From Ignavibacteriae bacterium HGW-Ignavibacteriae-2 (GTDB taxonomy: Bacteria > Bacteroidota > Ignavibacteria > Ignavibacteriales > Melioribacteraceae), in the NCBI GenBank assembly GCA_002839805.1, contig PGYT01000015.1:1-50909 (forward strand): a stretch of DNA of 50,909 bases. Reading direction: 5' to 3'. Made by a program: the position numbers and the translations under genes. Within the stretch, counting starts at the first letter, position 1; each line of letters starts with the position of its first letter. Below are positions 5,069-42,765 of this stretch, one piece after another. The notes below the pieces were generated by a model. It ran no database searches and was not told where the DNA came from. It worked only from the letters and a program-made list of their open reading frames with translations.

Positions 5069-5758
5069 ATGGTAGATGGAGTAAATAGCACAACCACAAG
5101 CGGTTACACCACAACCGAAGCAGGCAGTAACTCAGAGTTGGGTAAAGACGATTTTTTAAAACTTATGATAACCCAAATGAAGTATCAGGATCCAATGAAC
5201 CCAATGGATAGTAATGAATATTCAGCACAATTGGCTCAATTTTCGCAATTGGAGCAGCTTACCAATTTGAACGATTATATGAAACAGTCTATTGACGCCA
5301 ATTATTTACTTACACAATCTGTAAATAACACCATGACAGCCACGCTTATCGGCAAAGAAGTAAGACTTGGCACGGACACAATTAAGTACAATGGTCAGGA
5401 GCAGGTTAATTTTGGTTATGATTTACCTGTTAACGCGGCTTCTGTTACAGTTAATATTTATGATCAATACGGAAATATTGTAAAAACTATTCAGTCCGAT
5501 AAAAAATCTCTCGGACAGGCTAAACTAAGCTGGGATTTTACCGATAATAATGGTAATAAAATTCAAAATGGTGATTACACTTTTAAGGTGGATGCAAAAT
5601 CGATGGACGGACAAGAATTAACAATAAGTAATTATGTCTTTGGAAAACTTGAAGGCGTGCGTTTTGGTGAAAACGGTACAAACCTTATAGTTAATTCCGT
5701 TGAGTATTACTTATCCGATATCGAAGGCATTTACGATTCGAACGAGGGAGGTAATTAA
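5069..5758 (+). CDS. flgD: Flagellar hook cap/assembly protein FlgD
   Basis: FlgD sits at the tip of the growing hook and helps FlgE subunits assemble; it leaves when the hook is complete. The N-terminal secretion and capping region is at residues about 22-70 (LGKDDFLKLMITQMKYQDPM, then NEYSAQLAQFSQLEQL), which is diagnostic. An Ig-like/Tudor region follows (about 95-210), including KLSWDFTDNNGNKIQNGDY. Length (229 aa) is normal. A clear Shine-Dalgarno AGGAG lies 7 bases before ATG 5069. It sits between fliK and a small flagellar-operon protein, as in Firmicutes. Confidence 0.95.
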   Translation: MVDGVNSTTTSGYTTTEAGSNSELGKDDFLKLMITQMKYQDPMNPMDSNEYSAQLAQFSQLEQLTNLNDYMKQSIDANYLLTQSVNNTMTATLIGKEVRLGTDTIKYNGQEQVNFGYDLPVNAASVTVNIYDQYGNIVKTIQSDKKSLGQAKLSWDFTDNNGNKIQNGDYTFKVDAKSMDGQELTISNYVFGKLEGVRFGENGTNLIVNSVEYYLSDIEGIYDSNEGGN

Positions 5759-13276: not shown

Positions 13277-15328
13277 TTGTCAAGCATCGGTAAAAATAGC
13301 GATATTCTTTTAGCATTCGGACTAGTATTTATAGTAGCCTTAATGCTTCTTCCGTTACCAGCGGGTTTTCTGGATTTCTTCTTAGCGCTAAACATTACAA
13401 TTTCTGTCCTTGTTTTAATAGTTTCTTTATACATCAAATCACCGCTTGATATTTCCGTGTTTCCAGGACTTTTGCTTGTTGTAACTTTATTTCGATTGGC
13501 GTTAAATATAAGTTCAACAAGATTAATTCTAATAGAAGGTTACGCCGGAAAGGTAATAGAATCCTTCGGTCAGTTTGTTGTTGGCGGAAACTTTGTAGTG
13601 GGAATGATTATTTTTATAATTCTTGTAATTATTCAGTTTATAGTAATTGTAAAAGGATCAGGAAGAATTTCAGAAGTATCCGCGAGATTTACTTTGGACG
13701 CTATGCCCGGCAAGCAGATGGCCATAGACGCTGATCTGAATACCGGTTTAATAACTGAAGATGACGCAAAAAAACGCAGAGAACAAATTTCCCGTGAAGC
13801 TGAATTTTACGGCGCAATGGACGGTGCAAGTAAGTTCGTAAAAGGGGACGCAGTTGCGGGTCTGCTTATTAACGGAATAAATATTTTAGGCGGTTTTATT
13901 ATTGGTATTGCTCAAAGAGGAATGTCTTTAAGCGACGCTATTACTTCTTACACAATTCTTACAATTGGTGACGGACTTGTTTCTCAAATTCCAGCTTTGC
14001 TTATAGCAACAGGCGCAGGTTTGGTTGTTACACGCAGTGCTGCAGGAACGGCACTTGACAGTCAAATTAGAACTCAGCTTTTTAGTAATCCTAGAGTTAT
14101 GGGCACTGTTGCTGGTGTTGCATTTTTATTCGGACTTGTTCCCGGAATGCCAACCATTCCTTTCTTTATTTTAAGTATAGCTTTCGGTGCTACCTCATAT
14201 ATCAAAAATAAAAGAAACGACCAAGAACTTATTGATGAAGCTCAGCAGCAGGAAGTGGAAACTGAAAAACAGGAAGAAAGTTTTGAAAAATATTTACAGG
14301 TAGATCCTATTGAAGTTGAAATTGGCTATGGATTAATTAGTCTTGTAGATGAGGACAGCGGCGGTGACTTATTTAATAAAATTTCATCAACACGAAAATA
14401 TCTTGCTTTAGAATACGGCGTTTTAATTCCACCTGTGCGTGTTCGCGATAATTTACAACTTGCTTCTAACGAATATCTTATAAAAATAAAAGGTAATATT
14501 GTCGCTGATTACGAAGTTCATACCGACAGGTATCTGGCAATGAACCCAGGTGATGTGCAGGAAAAAATAAATGGTATTCCTACTACTGATCCTGCATTCG
14601 GTCTGGAAGCATATTGGGTGTCGGAAGCTGAAAAAGAAAGAGCTGAAATTGCCGGCATGACGGTAGTTGACGGATTGTCTGTGTTATCGACTCATTTGCA
14701 GGAAACACTGAAGAAAAATTTCGACAAAATACTTACCCGCCAGTCAGTTAAACAATTGCTGGAAAATCTTAAGAAAAATTATTCGGCTGTTATAGACGAT
14801 ATAGACCCAGACGCTTTACCTCTGGGGACAATTCAAAAAGTACTTCAGGCATTATTAAAGGAATTTATTCCTATAAAAGATTTAGTTCAGATTTTAGAGG
14901 CTTTGATTGATTACGGTAAAATCACAAAAAATATTGACGTATTAACAGAATACTGCAGACATTCAATCGGTGAAACAATTGCCAACATTTATAAAGACAA
15001 CAATGGGATAATTCACGCTTCGGTTATCGGGGAAAATTTGGATTCTATTATTACGTCTTCATTGCAAAATCAAAAAGAAGCTTCTCAAAATTTAGGCTTA
15101 TATCCAAATACTCTTAAGCAATTAAACAACAATTTAAAATCCGTTCAGAGCAAATTTATATCTCTCGGTTTTTCCCCGGTTGTTATTTGTTCGGCTACAA
15201 TAAGACCATATTTTTATAGACTTATCAACTCATCTTTTCCGGATTTTTCAGTTATTTCGTTCTCTGAATTGCCAGCCCACGTAGAAATAGAATTTATAGA
15301 TAAAATTGAGGTTTCAAATGAAAATTAA
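13277..15328 (+). CDS. flhA: Flagellar export gate protein FlhA
   Basis: FlhA is the large export-gate subunit and docks chaperone-substrate complexes. The start is TTG 13277, immediately after the flhB stop. It is chosen because the N-terminus SSIGKNSDILLAFGLVFIVA aligns with the family from there; the next ATG would remove part of the first membrane helix. About eight membrane helices cover residues 10-310. The FHIPEP loop motif is present (SARFTLDAMPGKQMAIDADL, near 135-154). The cytoplasmic domain fills residues 340-683. It overlaps flhF by 11 bases. Confidence 0.97.
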   Translation: MSSIGKNSDILLAFGLVFIVALMLLPLPAGFLDFFLALNITISVLVLIVSLYIKSPLDISVFPGLLLVVTLFRLALNISSTRLILIEGYAGKVIESFGQFVVGGNFVVGMIIFIILVIIQFIVIVKGSGRISEVSARFTLDAMPGKQMAIDADLNTGLITEDDAKKRREQISREAEFYGAMDGASKFVKGDAVAGLLINGINILGGFIIGIAQRGMSLSDAITSYTILTIGDGLVSQIPALLIATGAGLVVTRSAAGTALDSQIRTQLFSNPRVMGTVAGVAFLFGLVPGMPTIPFFILSIAFGATSYIKNKRNDQELIDEAQQQEVETEKQEESFEKYLQVDPIEVEIGYGLISLVDEDSGGDLFNKISSTRKYLALEYGVLIPPVRVRDNLQLASNEYLIKIKGNIVADYEVHTDRYLAMNPGDVQEKINGIPTTDPAFGLEAYWVSEAEKERAEIAGMTVVDGLSVLSTHLQETLKKNFDKILTRQSVKQLLENLKKNYSAVIDDIDPDALPLGTIQKVLQALLKEFIPIKDLVQILEALIDYGKITKNIDVLTEYCRHSIGETIANIYKDNNGIIHASVIGENLDSIITSSLQNQKEASQNLGLYPNTLKQLNNNLKSVQSKFISLGFSPVVICSATIRPYFYRLINSSFPDFSVISFSELPAHVEIEFIDKIEVSNEN

Positions 15329-16451
15329 AAAATTTCTTGCACCTACATTGCGCGAGGCTTCTGCAAAAATGAAGACTGAATTTGGTGATGAAGCCATAAT
15401 ATTAGGCACCAGAGTTGTGAATAAACAACTTGAGTATGGTACCGTTAAACTTTTTGAAATAACATCGGGCATCGAAGACGAAAATGATTTGGAATCGAAT
15501 AGTTTCCAGGGTTTATTGGACGCAAATACAAGACCCGAAATGGATTTTAAAGCCGAGCTCTCCAAAGTATCTGAAAACATTAATAGAAAAAAAGATCAAA
15601 ATTCTCTGTTAAGTATATTGGATACCGCAAAAATTAAAAGCTTAAAAAACGACAGCAAGCTTACCAAAGATTTATTAAATATGGCAATCGATAATTTGCT
15701 GCATAAAGAAATTGACAAACCTATTGTAAAAACTATTGTAGGGCATTTAAAAAAATCGCAACAGTTAATTAACGATAATAATTTAGAAAATTATATTATT
15801 TCTACAATTGCATCGTTGGTCTCCACTTCTAACTTTGAACTTGAAAAGAAAGGCAAACCGAAAGTTGTTGCTATGGTTGGTCCTACAGGTGTTGGCAAAA
15901 CAACATGTATAGCTAAATTGGCGGCAATTTCAAAAATATTGCATAACCTCAACATTGGAATTATTTCTATAGATACCTATAGACTCGGTGCAATTGATCA
16001 GCTGAGGATTTTTTCGGACATTAGCAACATAGATATGCTCGTCGCGTATGAACCCGGAGATATGCCGAAACTCGTGAAACAGCTGAAAGATAAGGACATT
16101 ATTTTTATTGATACAGCCGGCAGAAGTCAGAAGAACAGTAAAGATCTTGAACAAACAAAATACTTTCTCGATCAGATAAATGTAAACGAAACTTATCTGG
16201 TGCTGAGTTCAACAAGCTCAACTAAAAATTTATTTGATATAGCTGAAAAATTTAAAGTATTAAAATATGACTCACTTATTTTTACAAAAATTGACGAGAG
16301 TGTAACTTTTGGAAATATGCTTAATGTAATGGTTGAATTTAACGTTCCTATCATATATTTGACTAACGGTCAGGTAATACCCGACGATATTATATCGGCT
16401 GATTCCGAAGTTATAGCCAACATGATTTATACTGGAAAAGCGCTGGCATGA
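15318..16451 (+). CDS. flhF: Flagellar placement GTPase FlhF (SRP family)
   Basis: FlhF is an SRP-type GTPase that sets where and how many flagella form. I chose ATG 15318 (MKIKKFLAPTLREA), which is preceded by GAGG, over a TTG at 15306. The 377-residue product has the FlhF N-terminal region (KMKTEFGDEAIILGTRVV) and then a helical N domain. The G domain follows: P-loop GPTGVGKTT from residue 188, the DTYRLGAIDQL motif, DTAGRS, and TKIDE in the place of TKLDE. FlhG follows with a 4-base overlap and is its usual regulator. Confidence 0.96.
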   Translation: MKIKKFLAPTLREASAKMKTEFGDEAIILGTRVVNKQLEYGTVKLFEITSGIEDENDLESNSFQGLLDANTRPEMDFKAELSKVSENINRKKDQNSLLSILDTAKIKSLKNDSKLTKDLLNMAIDNLLHKEIDKPIVKTIVGHLKKSQQLINDNNLENYIISTIASLVSTSNFELEKKGKPKVVAMVGPTGVGKTTCIAKLAAISKILHNLNIGIISIDTYRLGAIDQLRIFSDISNIDMLVAYEPGDMPKLVKQLKDKDIIFIDTAGRSQKNSKDLEQTKYFLDQINVNETYLVLSSTSSTKNLFDIAEKFKVLKYDSLIFTKIDESVTFGNMLNVMVEFNVPIIYLTNGQVIPDDIISADSEVIANMIYTGKALA

Positions 16452-17275
16452 GCGGACAAATCGCTAAACTACACCGGATGTTTGAGGCAGAAAATCAGGA
16501 CTCTTACACCGGCAATAAAATTATTGCCTTTACTTCCGGTAAAGGAGGCACAGGTAAGACGTTTTTATCTGTCAATATAGCTCATTGCCTGGCGCACAGG
16601 GGTTATAAAATACTATTTATCGATTTCGACTCGAATCTTTCTAACGCGAACGTTTTGCTAAATATTAATCCTCAGAAAACGATTATCGACTACTTTTTAG
16701 GTAAGGTTCTATTCGATAATATAATTACTCCGGGAGCTGGAAATATAGATTATATTTTTGGCGATTCGGGCCGGCTGGATTATCCCAAAATTACTGTGGA
16801 TCAAATTTCGAGATTTTTAACTCAGCTACATAAGGCTAGTAAAAATTACGATTATATTTTTATTGATACAGGTGCCGGAATAAATAATGAAATAATTTAT
16901 TTGCTGGGGAAAATGCATAAAAACATTTTTGTAACGACACCCGAACCAACCTCCATAATAGATAGTTATGCCGTTATCAAAATGCTTCACTCAAAATCAC
17001 GCGCAGTAAAAAATTCGGTTATAATAAATACATGCGAAAACAAACAACAAGCTGATGAAGCTTTCGAAAATATGCGTATTGCATTGTCTCATTTCCTGAA
17101 AATATCGATTGATTATTTGGGATTCGTTCAATTCGATCAATCAGTTCGTAAATCTGTAATCGATCAGAATTTGTTTGTCTCCACTTTCCCCAAATCCTCA
17201 ATTACTTCACAAATAATATCAATATCAGAAAAATTGTCGGGCATCGAGCAATTGGCCAATATTCACCATTCCTGA
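16448..17275 (+). CDS. flhG: MinD-like ATPase FlhG (YlxH), flagellar number regulator
   Basis: FlhG is a MinD/ParA-family ATPase that activates the FlhF GTPase and limits flagellar number. The deviant Walker A motif GKGGTGKT is at residues 31-38, and FIDFDSNLSNANVLL follows near 58. The signature DYIFIDTGAGIN is near 136. The N-terminal GQIAKLHRMF resembles the DQAxxLR activator helix through which FlhG stimulates FlhF. Length (275 aa) is normal. The ATG overlaps the flhF stop by 4 bases. Confidence 0.95.
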   Translation: MSGQIAKLHRMFEAENQDSYTGNKIIAFTSGKGGTGKTFLSVNIAHCLAHRGYKILFIDFDSNLSNANVLLNINPQKTIIDYFLGKVLFDNIITPGAGNIDYIFGDSGRLDYPKITVDQISRFLTQLHKASKNYDYIFIDTGAGINNEIIYLLGKMHKNIFVTTPEPTSIIDSYAVIKMLHSKSRAVKNSVIINTCENKQQADEAFENMRIALSHFLKISIDYLGFVQFDQSVRKSVIDQNLFVSTFPKSSITSQIISISEKLSGIEQLANIHHS

Positions 17276-17350: not shown

Positions 17351-17366
17351 TGGTATGGTAATTGTC
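17351..17366 (+). promoter_or_regulatory. Possible sigma-54-like promoter before the small ORF and fliA
   Basis: TGGTATGGTAATTGTC resembles the sigma-54 pattern TGGYAY-N5-TTGCW, with T replacing C at -12. It is about 32 bases before the next ATG, nearly the same geometry as the candidate before fliL. Two imperfect sites with the same spacing make each a little more interesting, but neither has the full -12 GC. Confidence 0.2.
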
Positions 17367-17397
17367 TTATCTACTAACAAAAACTGTTAAGGATGTC

Positions 17398-17610
17398 ATG
17401 AATAAAATAATTCTCAATATTGGTTTACTGCTTTTTTTCTTAGCCATAATCTTTTTTAGTCAGAGACAGTTACCGGTAATGGACGTGTTAATCAAATCAT
17501 TTTCAATATTTATTCTTTCAACTGTGATGCTGGCGATTTTGGGTATTGTGATTATACGATCCATTAATAAACGATCTTTAGATAAGTCTAATAATGTAAC
17601 CGAACATTAA
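17398..17610 (+). CDS. Small two-helix membrane protein, unknown
   Basis: The 70-residue product starts at ATG 17398, with AAGGA a few bases upstream. That is preferred to an in-frame TTG at 17362 with no such signal. It has two membrane helices (about residues 4-20 and 28-50) and a short basic, polar C-terminus. I do not recognise a family. It lies between flhG and fliA, with 14 bases to fliA, so it is likely cotranscribed with the sigma factor. Any role in sigma-factor control or flagellar placement is speculation. Confidence 0.6.
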   Translation: MNKIILNIGLLLFFLAIIFFSQRQLPVMDVLIKSFSIFILSTVMLAILGIVIIRSINKRSLDKSNNVTEH

Positions 17611-17624
17611 AGTGGAAATGATAA

Positions 17625-18254
17625 ATGGATACAAATACACTTTGGGCCGAATATAAAGCACAACCAAATACGTTACTGAAGAAAAAAATTATTCTCAGCT
17701 ATACTAATTTGGTACACTATGTTATTCATCATTCGAAATTCGCAACAATGAATATTTTTGATGACAGAGACTATTTTCAATTCGGAATCGAAGGTTTAAA
17801 CGAAGCTGTAGACAGATTCGACCCCGACTTTGGAACAAAGTTCGAGACATATGCGATACAAAGAATACGTGGAAAAATTATTGATGAGTTGAGAAAGGCT
17901 CAGATTAAACCCAGAATTTTAAGCAGGGAAGATTCCAATCAGGTTCAATATTCCAATGTATCCCTTAATCAGCCCATCAATCAGGAAGATGGTTCCATGT
18001 TATACGAAGTGCTTCCAGCCGATGTAGAAACGCCAGATTTTGAAACAGAAAAGATTGAAGCGAAAGAAAAACTAATTGAAGCAATAAAAAATTTGAATGA
18101 AAGAGATAGAATGATAATAACTCTGTATTATTTCGAACATTTAAGTTACAAAGAAATTGCCGATGTTCTGGATATTTCAGTTTCAAGAATTTCGCAAATA
18201 CATTCCAAAATTATTGAAAACTTAAAATCAATGCTGGGTGATCTTAATGACTAA
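17625..18254 (+). CDS. fliA: Flagellar sigma factor FliA (sigma-28/SigD), lacking most of region 3
   Basis: FliA directs RNA polymerase to late flagellar and chemotaxis genes. Region 2 is intact (residues about 20-92: YFQFGIEGLNEAVDRFDP, then TYAIQRIRGKIIDELR). Region 4 is intact (about 150-203: LNERDRMIITLYYFEHLSYK, then SRISQIHSKIIENLKS). Between them, the segment after DELR is much shorter than in E. coli FliA. The helices that normally follow VPRSVRR and make up region 3 are absent, which explains the length of 209 instead of about 240 residues. Two TAAA-N15-CGATAA promoters in gaps of this window are plausible targets. No flgM anti-sigma gene is visible. Confidence 0.9.
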   Translation: MDTNTLWAEYKAQPNTLLKKKIILSYTNLVHYVIHHSKFATMNIFDDRDYFQFGIEGLNEAVDRFDPDFGTKFETYAIQRIRGKIIDELRKAQIKPRILSREDSNQVQYSNVSLNQPINQEDGSMLYEVLPADVETPDFETEKIEAKEKLIEAIKNLNERDRMIITLYYFEHLSYKEIADVLDISVSRISQIHSKIIENLKSMLGDLND

Positions 18255-19125
18255 TATGCTTCAAGATGACTTTTCTCTTAAAAACAAAAGGAAAAACTAT
18301 CTACTAAATATAAGGAGTCTTCCCCCGATTCCTACTGTAGTTGTTCAACTGACGCAAATTTTAAACGATCCTATGACTTCCACTCATCAGATCGGGAATT
18401 TAATTAGTCAGGATCAGGCATTAACGACAAAAATTTTAACAGTAGCTAATTCTCCACTTTACGGTTTGCCTAGAAAAGTACCAAGCATAGATTTTGCCAT
18501 ACTTGTTTTAGGTTTCGAACAAATTAAACAGATAGTTATTGCCCTGAGTTTAATGGATACATTCAAAAACGAAAATTCAAAATACTGGAATAGAAAGTCT
18601 TTCTGGATGCATTCATTCCTAACAGCAATGATGGCTAAAAATATCGCAGCGGAAAAAAAATATCCTAAAACAAATGAAGCTTTTACTGCGGGTTTGCTGC
18701 ATGATTTGGGCATATCAGTAATACAAAAATATTTTAATAGAGAGTTTGTTGAAATTAATGAATTAGTATCCACAAATTTTATCCCTTATTCCGAGGCCGA
18801 ACTTGCAATTCTTGATCTCACTCACGCTGAAATCGGAAAAATACTATGCGATAAATGGAATCTGCCCGTTTCCCTGAGTGATTCAATTCTTTATCACCAT
18901 AATCCTTCACAAGCAGAAGAGAATAAAAAATTAGCCGCTATAGTCCATCTGGCCGATTATACAACACAACAATTAGGATTCGGAAAATTTTTATGGGACG
19001 AAGAATTTACACTCGATACCTCGGTGATTGATATTCTTGAACTTGGAGGTTTAGATTACGTAGAATCGTTAATGGAAAATTACGGCGATCAGCTTAAACA
19101 ACAATTAGAATCTGTAAGTTTTTAA
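18247..19125 (+). CDS. HDOD-domain protein (first of a tandem pair)
   Basis: The 292-residue product is almost entirely one HDOD domain: LPPIPTVVVQLTQIL, LISQDQALTTKILTVANSPL, YGLPRKV.SIDFAILVLG, then a helical HD-like core with AGLLHDLGIS. HDOD proteins are usually non-catalytic signalling or regulatory relatives of HD phosphohydrolases and often occur with motility and c-di-GMP systems. I chose ATG 18247, which overlaps the fliA stop; ATG 18256 is also possible. The next gene is a clear paralogue. The direct role in this operon is not known. Confidence 0.9.
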   Translation: MTNMLQDDFSLKNKRKNYLLNIRSLPPIPTVVVQLTQILNDPMTSTHQIGNLISQDQALTTKILTVANSPLYGLPRKVPSIDFAILVLGFEQIKQIVIALSLMDTFKNENSKYWNRKSFWMHSFLTAMMAKNIAAEKKYPKTNEAFTAGLLHDLGISVIQKYFNREFVEINELVSTNFIPYSEAELAILDLTHAEIGKILCDKWNLPVSLSDSILYHHNPSQAEENKKLAAIVHLADYTTQQLGFGKFLWDEEFTLDTSVIDILELGGLDYVESLMENYGDQLKQQLESVSF

Positions 19126-19133
19126 AAGGGTTT

Positions 19134-20015
19134 ATGGAAACATCAGCTAAATATTCGATAGATAAAAACGAGAAGATTAAAACCACACTCGACAAAATAT
19201 ATAATCTTCCTGCTTTGCCCGATATTATTACGGAAGCTTTGCGTTTACTGAATAATAAAAAAACTTCCAACCAACAGCTTGTTGAAATAATTTCGAAAGA
19301 ACAAAGCTTCGTTGCCAAAATACTTTCTATTGCAAACTCCCCGATATACGGTTTAAGCAAGGAAGTATCCACTCTGGATTTTGCAATTATGCTATTGGGA
19401 CATAACGAACTGCGTCATATCATTTTTGTTGTGTCGTTTTTGGAATCATTCAGAGGTGGCGATTCCAAATATTTCGATCAAAATTTATATTGGCTCCACT
19501 CCCTTTTAACGGCAAAATTGGCAAAAAGAATAGCACAGGATGTTGGGTATGGAAAAAGCGGTGAAGCTTTTATAGCTGGTTTTTTGCACGATTTCGGCGT
19601 TTCAATTTCCCACAGATATTTCAAAAATACATTTATAGAAATAAGAGAATATATAGAAAAAGAAAAATGTTCGTTTGTTGAAGCCGAAAGAATACACCTT
19701 GGTATTACTCATTCGGAAATAGGCGGTTATTTAATGGAGCGTTGGAATTTACCAGTTGCGCTTCGTAAAGCTTCCCTTTATCACCATAATCCGATTGCTG
19801 ACTTAGAAGATCCGTTTTTACCGTCAATTATTCATGTGGCCGATTATGTAGCTGGTAAAATTCATTCGGAAAGTCTTTTTTGGGAAGATGGTTTTGTTTT
19901 GGATAAAAAAGTTTTCGAAGTTTTACGCGTCAGTGAAGAAAAACAGGAAGATTTTATCAGCAAATATGAAAATGTAATCGGTGAGGAACAAGACCTTAAG
20001 GGATTAATAATTTGA
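19134..20015 (+). CDS. HDOD-domain protein (second of a tandem pair)
   Basis: The 293-residue product matches the preceding gene along its length: LPALPDIITEALRLL, IISKEQSFVAKILSIANSPI, YGLSKEVSTLDFAIMLLG, AGFLHDFGVSI, and a shared ending with YHHNPIADLED...VADYV. The two genes are a tandem duplication that has diverged. The HD pair is retained in both. ATG 19134 follows AAAAGGG by a few bases. The end overlaps the kinase-like gene by 4 bases, so sigma factor, both HDOD genes and the kinase-like gene look like one translationally coupled set. Confidence 0.9.
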   Translation: METSAKYSIDKNEKIKTTLDKIYNLPALPDIITEALRLLNNKKTSNQQLVEIISKEQSFVAKILSIANSPIYGLSKEVSTLDFAIMLLGHNELRHIIFVVSFLESFRGGDSKYFDQNLYWLHSLLTAKLAKRIAQDVGYGKSGEAFIAGFLHDFGVSISHRYFKNTFIEIREYIEKEKCSFVEAERIHLGITHSEIGGYLMERWNLPVALRKASLYHHNPIADLEDPFLPSIIHVADYVAGKIHSESLFWEDGFVLDKKVFEVLRVSEEKQEDFISKYENVIGEEQDLKGLII

Positions 20016-21319
20016 AAGTGATAAAAAATAAATATATCAAATTCCCTAGTCTGGAGGATTCTATCGGTAGACTGGGAGTTGAGTTTAAGGGAAACTCCGA
20101 AGCGAAAAACGACTATAACGATTTCGACTTAAGTCCCGCGGAGCAACAGAAGAGAATTCGATTCTTTTTTGTTATGAACAAGCTGAACGCGAAATTTGAT
20201 GAAACGTTTGATCCAGAAAAAATACTTGAATATTTACAAACAGCTTTAAAAGAAATTATAATTCTTAAAAGTTCTTTCTTTTTTGTTTTCGATGAAAATT
20301 CGCATCTTAAACCGGTAAGCAAAACAACCGATAAAAATTACACATCCTTTATAAATAAAGCGTATCAGAATGGAATTTTAGACTGGATGTTTGAAACAAA
20401 AAAAATATCCGTATTACCCGACATAACAAGACGTGAAAAAAACACAAATGCTCTTAGCCTCCTTGTTATACCATTATTTATGGAAAACAAACCATATGGC
20501 CTATACGCGATTGCCACACCCATTGCATCACTATCTTCAAAAACCTACGAATCAGATGTATTAAAAATGTTTTTGGCATTAGCTCAAAGCAAAATTGAAC
20601 ATGCCCGTCAGCAAGAGCGGATATCTGCTGTTTACGATGATTTACAAACTCTTCAATCAAAATTATCTAACGATTATAAATTCTCGGCTATTGGGGAACT
20701 TACCGCAGGTATAGTTGAAGATGTTATGAGCCCTGTACAGGTAATTCTGAGTTGTACAAATTTTATTGAAAAAGAATTTACTCAAGTGGATAAAAAATTA
20801 ACGGGAGCAATAACTTCTCAGATAAAAAAAATTGAAAATGTAATTAAAAGACTATCCAAATTTGTTGGCGCTCAGCCAACTAATGGAAATCTTTATCCCA
20901 CAATAATTAACGAACAAATTCAGGATTATTATGAAGTAGTACTTTCATCGTTAAAATATAATAACTACGAATGTATACTTGACTTGGATAACAATCTTCC
21001 GCCCATAATGACGCAGAAATCCTATATTCATCAACTGCTCACCAACCTGTTCGGAATGGTTCTGAATTCTAATGTTGAAGGCGGTGGGATTTTAGTACAA
21101 ACAAAATTTGTAAGTGAAAGTATTTCTCTGCGATTTATTGTAACGGACAGACTAAATATTTACGCAGAAGATAACAATGGGAACAAAGCGAATTTAAACG
21201 TTAAAATGATTGCAAATATTATGAAACGTCACCAGGGTGATGTAAAAATAATTAATAACGAATCCGGCGGTACAACAATAATCTTAAATTTCCCTGTAAA
21301 AAGGAAGCTCAGTAAATGA
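20012..21319 (+). CDS. GAF-containing histidine-kinase-like protein without phosphoacceptor His
   Basis: The 435-residue product starts at TTG 20012 with AAGGGA about 10 bases upstream; GTG 20018 is an alternative. Residues about 60-200 look like a GAF sensor domain. A DHp-like segment follows (FSAIGELTAGIVEDVMSPVQ, residues 224-243). In true kinases of this type it reads GELAAGIAHEINNPL; here Glu236 replaces the His. The ATPase-like end (about 335-430) keeps a weak N-box (QLLTNLFGMVLNS), but the DxGxG motif is replaced by VTDRLNIYAEDNNG. It is therefore probably not an active kinase. It may act as a binding or scaffold partner. Confidence 0.8.
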   Translation: MKVIKNKYIKFPSLEDSIGRLGVEFKGNSEAKNDYNDFDLSPAEQQKRIRFFFVMNKLNAKFDETFDPEKILEYLQTALKEIIILKSSFFFVFDENSHLKPVSKTTDKNYTSFINKAYQNGILDWMFETKKISVLPDITRREKNTNALSLLVIPLFMENKPYGLYAIATPIASLSSKTYESDVLKMFLALAQSKIEHARQQERISAVYDDLQTLQSKLSNDYKFSAIGELTAGIVEDVMSPVQVILSCTNFIEKEFTQVDKKLTGAITSQIKKIENVIKRLSKFVGAQPTNGNLYPTIINEQIQDYYEVVLSSLKYNNYECILDLDNNLPPIMTQKSYIHQLLTNLFGMVLNSNVEGGGILVQTKFVSESISLRFIVTDRLNIYAEDNNGNKANLNVKMIANIMKRHQGDVKIINNESGGTTIILNFPVKRKLSK

Positions 21320-31236: not shown

Positions 31237-31479
31237 ATGTTAATTTTAAAAAGAAAAATTAATGAAGAGTTAAAAATTAACTCAAACATTACTATAAAAA
31301 TTCTATCCATTTCCGATAATCAAGTTAAGATCGGAATTGACGCGCCGGGAAGTGTACAAATTTATAGAGCGGAGTTATTGGACAAGGTTACTGAAAGTAT
31401 TAAAACCGCTTCTGTAAAAAGTAAAGAGAACTTAACAAACCTCAACAAATATATGTTGAACAAGATCGGGAAGAAGTAA
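31237..31479 (+). CDS. csrA: Translational regulator CsrA
   Basis: CsrA binds GGA motifs near ribosome sites and represses translation, in this context most likely of flagellin mRNA. The 80-residue product begins MLILKRKINEELKINSNITI. It has the core DNQVKIGIDAPGSVQIYRAE, keeping the RNA-binding Arg of the usual VHREE segment as YRAE. AAGGAG lies 9 bases before ATG 31237. The C-terminal tail (about residues 52-80) is longer and more basic than in E. coli CsrA, as in FliW-linked versions. Confidence 0.95.
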   Translation: MLILKRKINEELKINSNITIKILSISDNQVKIGIDAPGSVQIYRAELLDKVTESIKTASVKSKENLTNLNKYMLNKIGKK

Positions 31480-34946: not shown

Positions 34947-34973
34947 TAAATTCTCAATAATTCCTTTCGATAA
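34947..34973 (+). promoter_or_regulatory. Sigma-28-type promoter before the unknown gene at 34992
   Basis: TAAATTCT, 11 bases, then TTCGATAA. This fits the FliA pattern TAAAGTTT-N11-GCCGATAA with the exact spacing; the -10 element has TT in place of GC. It ends 18 bases before the ATG, which has GAGGA close by, so a short 5' leader is expected. Confidence 0.65.
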
Positions 34974-42738: not shown

Positions 42739-42765
42739 TAAAGTTTTTAAATAACTGTCCGATAA
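42739..42765 (+). promoter_or_regulatory. Near-consensus sigma-28 promoter for cheW
   Basis: TAAAGTTT, 11 bases, then TCCGATAA. Compared with the FliA consensus TAAAGTTT-N11-GCCGATAA only the first base of the -10 element differs. It ends 72 bases before the cheW ATG, in a divergent intergenic gap. This is the best promoter in the window. Confidence 0.85.

Follow-up and report, generated by a model that had tools for sequence, protein, structure and literature searches.

As far as sampled, the flagellar sigma factor FliA (sigma-28) of the bacterial order Ignavibacteriales lacks the helices of domain 3, a loss that is conserved among relatives; a half-eroded intermediate survives in a neighbouring family, and the sequences preceding flagellin genes differ from those of sister families with full-length FliA. 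We consider it probable that this factor works two-headed, without dependence on the bases G-15 and C-14 of the extended -10 element, and that its promoters have relaxed as a result. The starting point was a stretch of 50,909 nucleotides from Ignavibacteriae bacterium HGW-Ignavibacteriae-2 (contig PGYT01000015.1, assembly GCA_002839805.1), referred to here as the window, whose features are collected in Table 1.

Table 1. Features of the fliA locus and candidate sigma-28 promoters in the window.
Feature	Position	Strand	Basis or context
fliA, 209-aa sigma-28-type sigma factor without region 3 helices	17625..18254	+	ATG-start ORF, Pfam, curated families, 79 relatives
Sigma domain 2, aa 1-90 (D87 and R90 correspond to E. 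coli FliA D81 and R84)	17625..17894	+	Pfam r2, 6PMI alignment
Remnant at the position of regions 3.0/3.1, aa 91-112 (R97 corresponds to E. coli R91)	17895..17960	+	pLDDT 50-62, helix-free
Region 3.2-like linker, retained, aa 113-134	17961..18026	+	Sub-cut-off Pfam r3 fragment; S113 in 80/80 rows
Sigma domain 4, aa 148-201 (V186; E in the sister rows read)	18066..18227	+	Pfam r4
flhA, SRP54-type GTPase (flhF by position), ParA/MinD-type ATPase (flhG by position)	13277..17275	+	Pfam FHIPEP, SRP54, AAA_31/ParA
Two HDOD genes and a 435-aa gene, downstream of fliA	18238..21319	+	Pfam, gene order
Candidate sigma-28 promoter TAAAGTTT-N11-TCCGATAA-T	42739..42765	+	72 nt before cheW gene (42838)
Candidate sigma-28 promoter TAAATTCT-N11-TTCGATAA-T	34947..34973	+	18 nt before ORF 34992
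Weaker candidate TATAAAAA-N11-TCCGATAA-T	31293..31319	+	Before ORF 31479, one mismatch

A preliminary description of the window had reported a FliA of 209 residues with intact regions 2 and 4 and most of region 3 missing, about 36 or more residues relative to E. coli FliA. This account is confirmed by Pfam, by alignment to the E. coli chain 6PMI and by an AlphaFold2 model. The Pfam search placed Sigma70_r2 at residues 45-93 (41.1 bits) and Sigma70_r4 at residues 153-201 (60.3 bits); for Sigma70_r3 it returned a fragment below the cut-off (E = 0.095, positions 48-75 of the 78 in the profile, residues 112-138), which reads as the tail of region 3.2 without the helices. When the protein was aligned to 6PMI with phmmer, D87, R90 and R97 fell on residues 81, 84 and 91, and E159 on residue 191. 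The distance from the end of region 2 to the ERDR motif of region 4 is 68 residues in the window FliA and 106 in the E. coli protein, a difference of 38. In an alignment of 32 proteins the missing piece corresponds to the helical part of region 3, and the sequence from SLNQP onward (region 3.2) still aligns. The earlier view that the chain runs almost straight from region 2 to the linker is thus correct for the region 3 helices but not for the region 3.2 tail, which is retained.

The AlphaFold2 model, computed from an 80-row alignment, is helical in domains 2 and 4 and of low confidence between about residue 95 and residue 134. A helix at 73-94 is followed by the next helix of at least four residues only at 126-129, and the mean pLDDT of ten-residue blocks from residue 91 onward is 58, 50, 62, 64 and 70, with values below 50 at 96-100. 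The structure prediction that the preliminary description had proposed as a check thus contains no domain 3 helices. The pTM is 0.45, a value that a flexible connection between two domains may explain. Structure comparisons with the model returned sigma factors generally; the full-length rmsd is high since the domains are not fixed relative to each other, and the comparisons are uninformative on domain 3. Among curated families, WhiG (153.9 bits) and FliA_WhiG (TIGR02479, 152.1 bits against a cut-off of 189.6) scored best, both under their own cut-offs, and the general sigma70-ECF superfamily model gave 121 bits. The protein therefore has FliA-type regions 2 and 4 and is devoid of regions 3.0 and 3.1, which make up domain 3.

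Koo et al. in 2009, writing on the extended -10 element of sigma-28, reportedly found that in E. coli the CG of CGATAA is contacted by D81 and R84 and the upstream GC by R91 of domain 3; Shi et al. 2020 reportedly describe the sigma-28 structure. By way of these E. coli residues we take D87 and R90 of the window protein to be the readers of CG, and R97 to be the counterpart of the upstream GC reader. D87 and R90 are invariant among the relatives described below, so that, given these roles, the CG reader would be untouched, and the GC reader would be lost or would sit on a flexible segment.

We asked how widely this architecture is shared. A search of genome contigs found 101 relatives, of which the best 80, all close relatives, were examined; their titles are of Ignavibacteriales type, name the broader Bacteroidetes/Chlorobi group or say simply 'bacterium'. 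One (L084) was excluded for an in-frame stop, and the window sequence was aligned with the other 79, of which one row ends at a contig end (L067) and three were started inside the ORF (L065, L069 and L075). The 79 relatives are 55-83% identical to the window FliA. In all 80 rows D87, R90 and S113 are conserved and the spacing from R90 to S113 is 19-24 residues. Position 97 is more variable (R in 56/80, K in 11, E in 11, and S and D in one each). Position 186, in region 4.2, is V in 71 rows and I in nine; it is also V in family f13, and its equivalent is E in those sister rows whose motif was extracted by pattern. Since the short linker is common to the 79 relatives, it is not a frameshift, and the combination that the preliminary description had considered, normal-length relatives with a frameshift here, was not found among them.

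Whole genomes extend this picture. A strong match to the window FliA was present in 29 of 39 related genomes. As TIGR02479 detects the short protein poorly in whole genomes, a profile built from the alignment of relatives was also used. The class sample included 32 genomes of the order (families f1, f2 and f3): none exceeded the full-length family cut-off, and 21 matched the short-FliA profile. The same profile matched 55 of 56 Ignavibacteriales genomes chosen because they bear flagellin; two of these matches (G578 and G621) are contig-end fragments only, and a third (G515) has an in-frame stop. As far as sampled, the short FliA is therefore an order-wide sigma-28 variant. Two genomes of f2 (G023 and G031) carry two short fliA copies each. 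Another genome, G032, is 99% complete and yields four matches to flagellin and none to fliA, for which its congener G566 has one. A FliA without region 3 is not described in the titles and abstract openings that were searched, a body of literature that leaves most subscription journals outside its coverage.

To place the short proteins we built a tree on 156 columns taken only from regions 2 and 4, with the linker excluded and without ECF rows. FliA above the full-length cut-off occurs in families f5, f9, f10, f14, f17, f18, f19, f21, f26 and f27 of the class sample. The 16 short proteins form one clade (support 99/97), which together with f13 forms a second (100/98), and this is joined by rows from f9, f17, f21, f26 and f27 (98/83), with one f21 row (L205) lying elsewhere. 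The short FliA is thus nested among full-length proteins of the class (98/83 and 100/98), that is, it descends from FliA. The linker from DELR to region 4, measured by pattern, is 100-114 residues long in the seven full-length rows measured, 88-89 in the four of f13, and 66 and 68 in the two short ones; the remaining rows tried gave no measurement. Family f13, which resembles the short proteins in being their sister in the tree and in having V at the same place in region 4.2, therefore differs from them in that about half of region 3 is kept. A single f13 locus (L360) was viewed; there, as in the window, HDOD and 435-aa genes lie downstream of fliA, the latter being only weakly similar to its window counterpart (20% over 198 residues, E = 1e-4). 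None of the six f13 genomes (6/6) has a Flagellin_N match, so this family has apparently retained sigma-28 without flagellin.

Outside this clade, genome G091 of family f7 (85% complete, 7% contaminated) encodes a FliA of 216 residues with a 66-residue linker in which DWMPRS is kept. This protein falls elsewhere in the tree and may represent a second, independent loss. Of the four regions upstream of flagellin in G091, one has TAAAGTTT-N11-GCCGATAA (L274).

The window fliA lies in a flagellar gene neighbourhood with the order flhB, flhA, flhF-like, flhG-like, a small ORF, fliA, two HDOD genes, the 435-aa gene and an FlgE/F/G-type gene. The small ORF (17362-17610) looks like a membrane protein; the 435-aa protein (20012-21319) has no Pfam match at 1e-6. 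The window's genome has a match to the anti-sigma factor FlgM (PF04316, 28.9 bits), which makes ordinary anti-sigma control plausible, but FlgM was matched in just 4 of 38 genomes searched, full-length sisters included. Scans of the fliA neighbourhoods for promoters gave four matches at 81 short-clade loci (reversed control, three) and two at 28 full-length loci (reversed control, none), a near-absence that is expected of an early-gene cluster.

We next turned to the promoters. The preliminary description had argued that both intergenic sigma-28-type sites in the window, at 42739-42765 and 34947-34973, keep CGATAA and lose the leading G, as would suit a reader without region 3. Two window sites alone are poor evidence: the window as a whole holds 24 matches to TAAA-N17-CGATAA with at most one mismatch, against 13.6 +/- 3.9 in shuffled sequence (one of 100 shuffles reaches 24). 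Regions upstream of Flagellin_N matches were scored for TAAA and CGATAA at N10-N12 spacing, the two bases preceding CGATAA being left unscored; the C of CGATAA is numbered -13 by convention, by analogy with sigma-70. Scores of at least 9 out of 10 were found in 69 of 92 Ignavibacteriales regions (13.5 in mononucleotide shuffles) and in 34 of 47 regions from sister families with full-length FliA (5.2 in shuffles), leaving 23/92 and 13/47 regions with no site of at least 9.0. After one identical site was merged (69 to 68) and three were dropped for lying outside 110-230 nt or scoring below 9.3 (L260, L426 and L452; 68 to 65), the comparison comprised 65 sites from 60 Ignavibacteriales genomes and 34 sites from 31 sister genomes, with five f7 regions in neither group. 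In the short clade the distance from the site to the start of the Flagellin_N match is mostly 90-120 nt, and in five cases that were viewed the start codon is 65-84 nt below the site.

All 65 short-clade sites have the CG of CGATAA, a high value being expected because these bases were scored. At the unscored positions the groups diverge (Table 2).

Table 2. Bases at -15 and -14 of candidate flagellin promoters; the nearest sisters are families f9, f17, f21, f26 and f27.
Base	Short clade	Nearest sisters	Other sisters
G-15	7/65	12/17	5/17
C-14	26/65	7/17	17/17
G-15 or C-14	28/65	16/17	17/17

Taking all sisters together, 33/34 sites have one base or the other, and with one site per genome the counts are 27/62 in the short clade and 31/31 in the sisters. 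The Fisher p-values, inflated because genomes that share ancestry are treated as independent, are 2e-6 for G-15 against the nearest sisters and 8e-9 for either base, one site per genome, against all sisters. The difference persists in a stricter set. Omitting G032, the genome in which no fliA was found and which gave two of the 65 sites, leaves G-15 at 7/63 and either base at 27/63; omitting the two f21 genomes (G204 and G199) whose genus FliA (L205) falls elsewhere in the tree leaves the nearest sisters at 10/15 and 14/15, and for G-15 the similarly inflated Fisher p becomes 3e-5.

The identity of the bases qualifies the earlier argument. In families f10, f14 and f18, which have full-length FliA, the step is TC, giving TCCGATA, at 12/12 sites, and a missing leading G alone is therefore not diagnostic. 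The expectation that CGATAA would be kept and the leading G lost is thus borne out by the scarcity of G-15 next to the nearest sisters and fails as a marker on its own; the argument pointed in the right direction, was incomplete and is partly supported. What marks the short clade is a loosened constraint on both -15 and -14, which is reduced and not gone. The step takes 12 different dinucleotides among the 68 short-clade sites, and in an information profile restricted to N11 sites (62 short-clade, 27 sister) it holds 0.72 bits in the short clade and 1.62 in the sisters. Some preference persists, with T-15 at 45/65 sites (background 0.295), C-14 above its background of 0.155, and either base at a frequency slightly above its background of 0.295 (p = 0.02), so that something may still read there and the positions are relaxed, not free.

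We also looked beyond flagellin genes. An exact pattern search of 31 short-clade genomes gave 128 matches (20 in the reversed control), of which 23, of the type TAAACTTT-CTTGGGATTTTACCGATAA, look like flgD codons and were set aside; among the remaining 105, G-15 occurs in 14 and either base in 44. The 31 sister genomes gave 24 matches, of which 22 were listed and counted, with either base in 17/22; the reversed control gave 12, so about half of the sister matches are chance. This broader count, made without filtering, separates the groups less clearly than the flagellin sites do. To determine whether the change reflects homology of flagellin leaders only, we picked by hand 18 non-coding, non-flagellin sites, 17 of them from the pattern matches and one being the window site at 34947, and excluded L382 and L383, whose core is not CGATAA. 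Some precede cheW, HDOD, STAS, PAS or chemoreceptor-like genes and some have no near gene. In this small set, which will include chance matches, G-15 occurs once, either base nine times and T-7 17 times.

Other positions of the candidate flagellin promoters have changed as well. Relative to the 34 sister sites, the 65 short-clade sites are richer in T-7 (64/65 vs 22/34), T-1 (54/65 vs 17/34) and G+1 (51/65 vs 3/34), and positions -7 to +1 carry 5.8 bits against 2.7. Over +2 to +40 the mean per position is 0.20 bits for the short clade and 0.09 for the sisters, but the 1.1 bits at +3 in the short clade indicate that some leader conservation is mixed into the promoter signal. At position 5 of the -35 box, C is found in 59/65 short-clade and 1/34 sister sites, G being the sister base in 30/34. 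Set against the consensus TAAAGTTT-N11-GCCGATAA, the spacing and CGATAA are kept, the GC is relaxed, and TAAAC stands for TAAAG before flagellin genes, which gives TAAAC-N16-CGATAAT as a candidate signature of Ignavibacteriales flagellin promoters. We considered the G-to-C change at -35 as a consequence of the E to V/I substitution at position 186 and retain the link as a correlation only, because the late-type sites of the window's genome are a mix of TAAAG and TAAAC: the substitution accompanies the -35 change before flagellin genes and not at all such sites. The changes at T-7, T-1, G+1 and -35 position 5 lie where region 3 is not expected to reach.

In the explanation that we favour, domain 3 would have been lost stepwise in an ancestor of the Ignavibacteriales, with domain 2, the region 3.2 linker and domain 4 kept. 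Domain 4 would read the -35 box (TAAAC/G), domain 2 would read CGATAA through D87 and R90 and then melt it, and the flexible 3.2-type linker would thread the RNA polymerase cleft. With no domain 3 contact at the extended -10 element, dependence on G-15 and C-14 would disappear and these bases would drift, and selection would shift weight to bases at and below the -10 box (T-7, T-1 and G+1). Lacking domain 3, a sigma factor would be expected to lean more on the -10 box and the bases below it; T-7 and a preferred start base would fit that expectation. This explanation takes the motifs to be promoters and the protein to be active, and would make the loss of domain 3 the cause of the relaxation and the downstream bases its compensation. 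Because the loss is one event in one clade, the comparison is effectively a single replicate, and it is by inference that we connect the loss with the promoter change.

The promoter change could instead reflect drift within the lineage, or a retuning in which domain 4 (E to V/I at position 186) and further factors took part, the loss of domain 3 being coincidental and nearly neutral. We think this unlikely, though it deserves serious consideration: the shift at -35 position 5 accompanies a substitution in the recognition helix, the -35 box is out of reach of domain 3, and TC is seen in sisters whose domain 3 is full. It accounts less well for the variety of dinucleotides at -15/-14 beside a fixed CG, which looks like loosened reading and not like a new preference, and the mix of TAAAG and TAAAC in the window's genome suggests that the -35 change may be confined to flagellin genes. 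Replacement of domain 3 in trans, or transfer of its extended -10 role to another protein or to a changed RNA polymerase subunit, seems improbable. A partner would help a sigma factor with fewer contacts, and the neighbouring 435-aa protein without a Pfam match, with its weakly similar counterpart in the same place at f13 locus L360, is the kind of gene that might supply one; the small ORF upstream of fliA, as an apparent membrane protein, speaks against it.

A takeover of the flagellar locus by an ECF (group 4) sigma factor is very improbable. The two-domain architecture and a sub-cut-off Sigma70_ECF match would suit such a takeover, but the WhiG and FliA_WhiG models score 154 and 152 bits against 121 for the sigma70-ECF superfamily, and the tree, which holds no ECF rows, nests the short proteins within FliA next to a half-eroded sister. 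Least credible of all is a decaying or damaged FliA, whether by frameshift or by metagenome assembly error. Most of the relatives' records are titled as metagenome bins, yet the 79 share the same architecture and conserved residues, and they include the named strain Stygiobacter electus 09-Me (L097) and a chromosome-titled record (L074); on the strength of this alignment we ruled out frameshift, decay and assembly error.

As generally described, group 3 sigma factors have domains 2, 3 and 4, and ECF (group 4) factors only domains 2 and 4 with a flexible linker between them. The window FliA resembles the latter in this layout and differs from them in its family scores, its position in the tree with FliA/WhiG and its region 3.2-like segment. 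It is conceivable, at somewhat short of an even prospect, that an order-wide sigma-28 became two-domain and ECF-like by stepwise loss, with promoter information moving from -15/-14 to -7, -1 and +1, along a path from group 3 towards group 4. With the FliA systems of E. coli, Aquifex and Pseudomonas (6PMI, 1RP3 and 9WSM) the window protein shares domains 2 and 4, a neighbourhood of flagellar export genes, TAAA...N11...CGATAA before flagellin genes and the FlgM match; it differs in the absence of the domain 3 helices (38 residues fewer than E. coli), and the short-clade promoters differ in their relaxed extended -10 element, T-7, T-1G+1 and a -35 position 5 that is mostly C before flagellin. Among the WhiG structures of Streptomyces and Rubrobacter (6PFV/6PFJ and 7LQ4), 6PFV and 6PFJ are the best PDB sequence matches to the window FliA. 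The WhiG chain in 7LQ4 looks short, and we considered Rubrobacter WhiG as a known relative without region 3. This was ruled out, as Rubrobacter WhiG has a domain 3, with density reported for only part of it and a final model of residues 2-115 and 202-271 (PMC8325347).

A short sigma-28, sisters with half or full domain 3 and dozens of changed promoters would together allow the contribution of domain 3 to be asked about directly. Such a system could show how promoter recognition redistributes after a reading domain is lost, and would bear on whether ECF-like sigma factors arise by loss of domain 3. It may be viewed as a natural experiment in the evolution of a gene switch, in which flagellin promoters are largely without the bases that domain 3 is thought to read.

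Finally, a sequence of TAAACTTT-CTTGGGATTTTACCGATAATAATGG type occurs in the window at 5521-5547, in apparent flgD codons (WDFTDNNG). Five cases of this flgD-type sequence that were viewed sit about 150-220 nt before the next ORF, and its recurrence may be either a codon coincidence or an internal late promoter.
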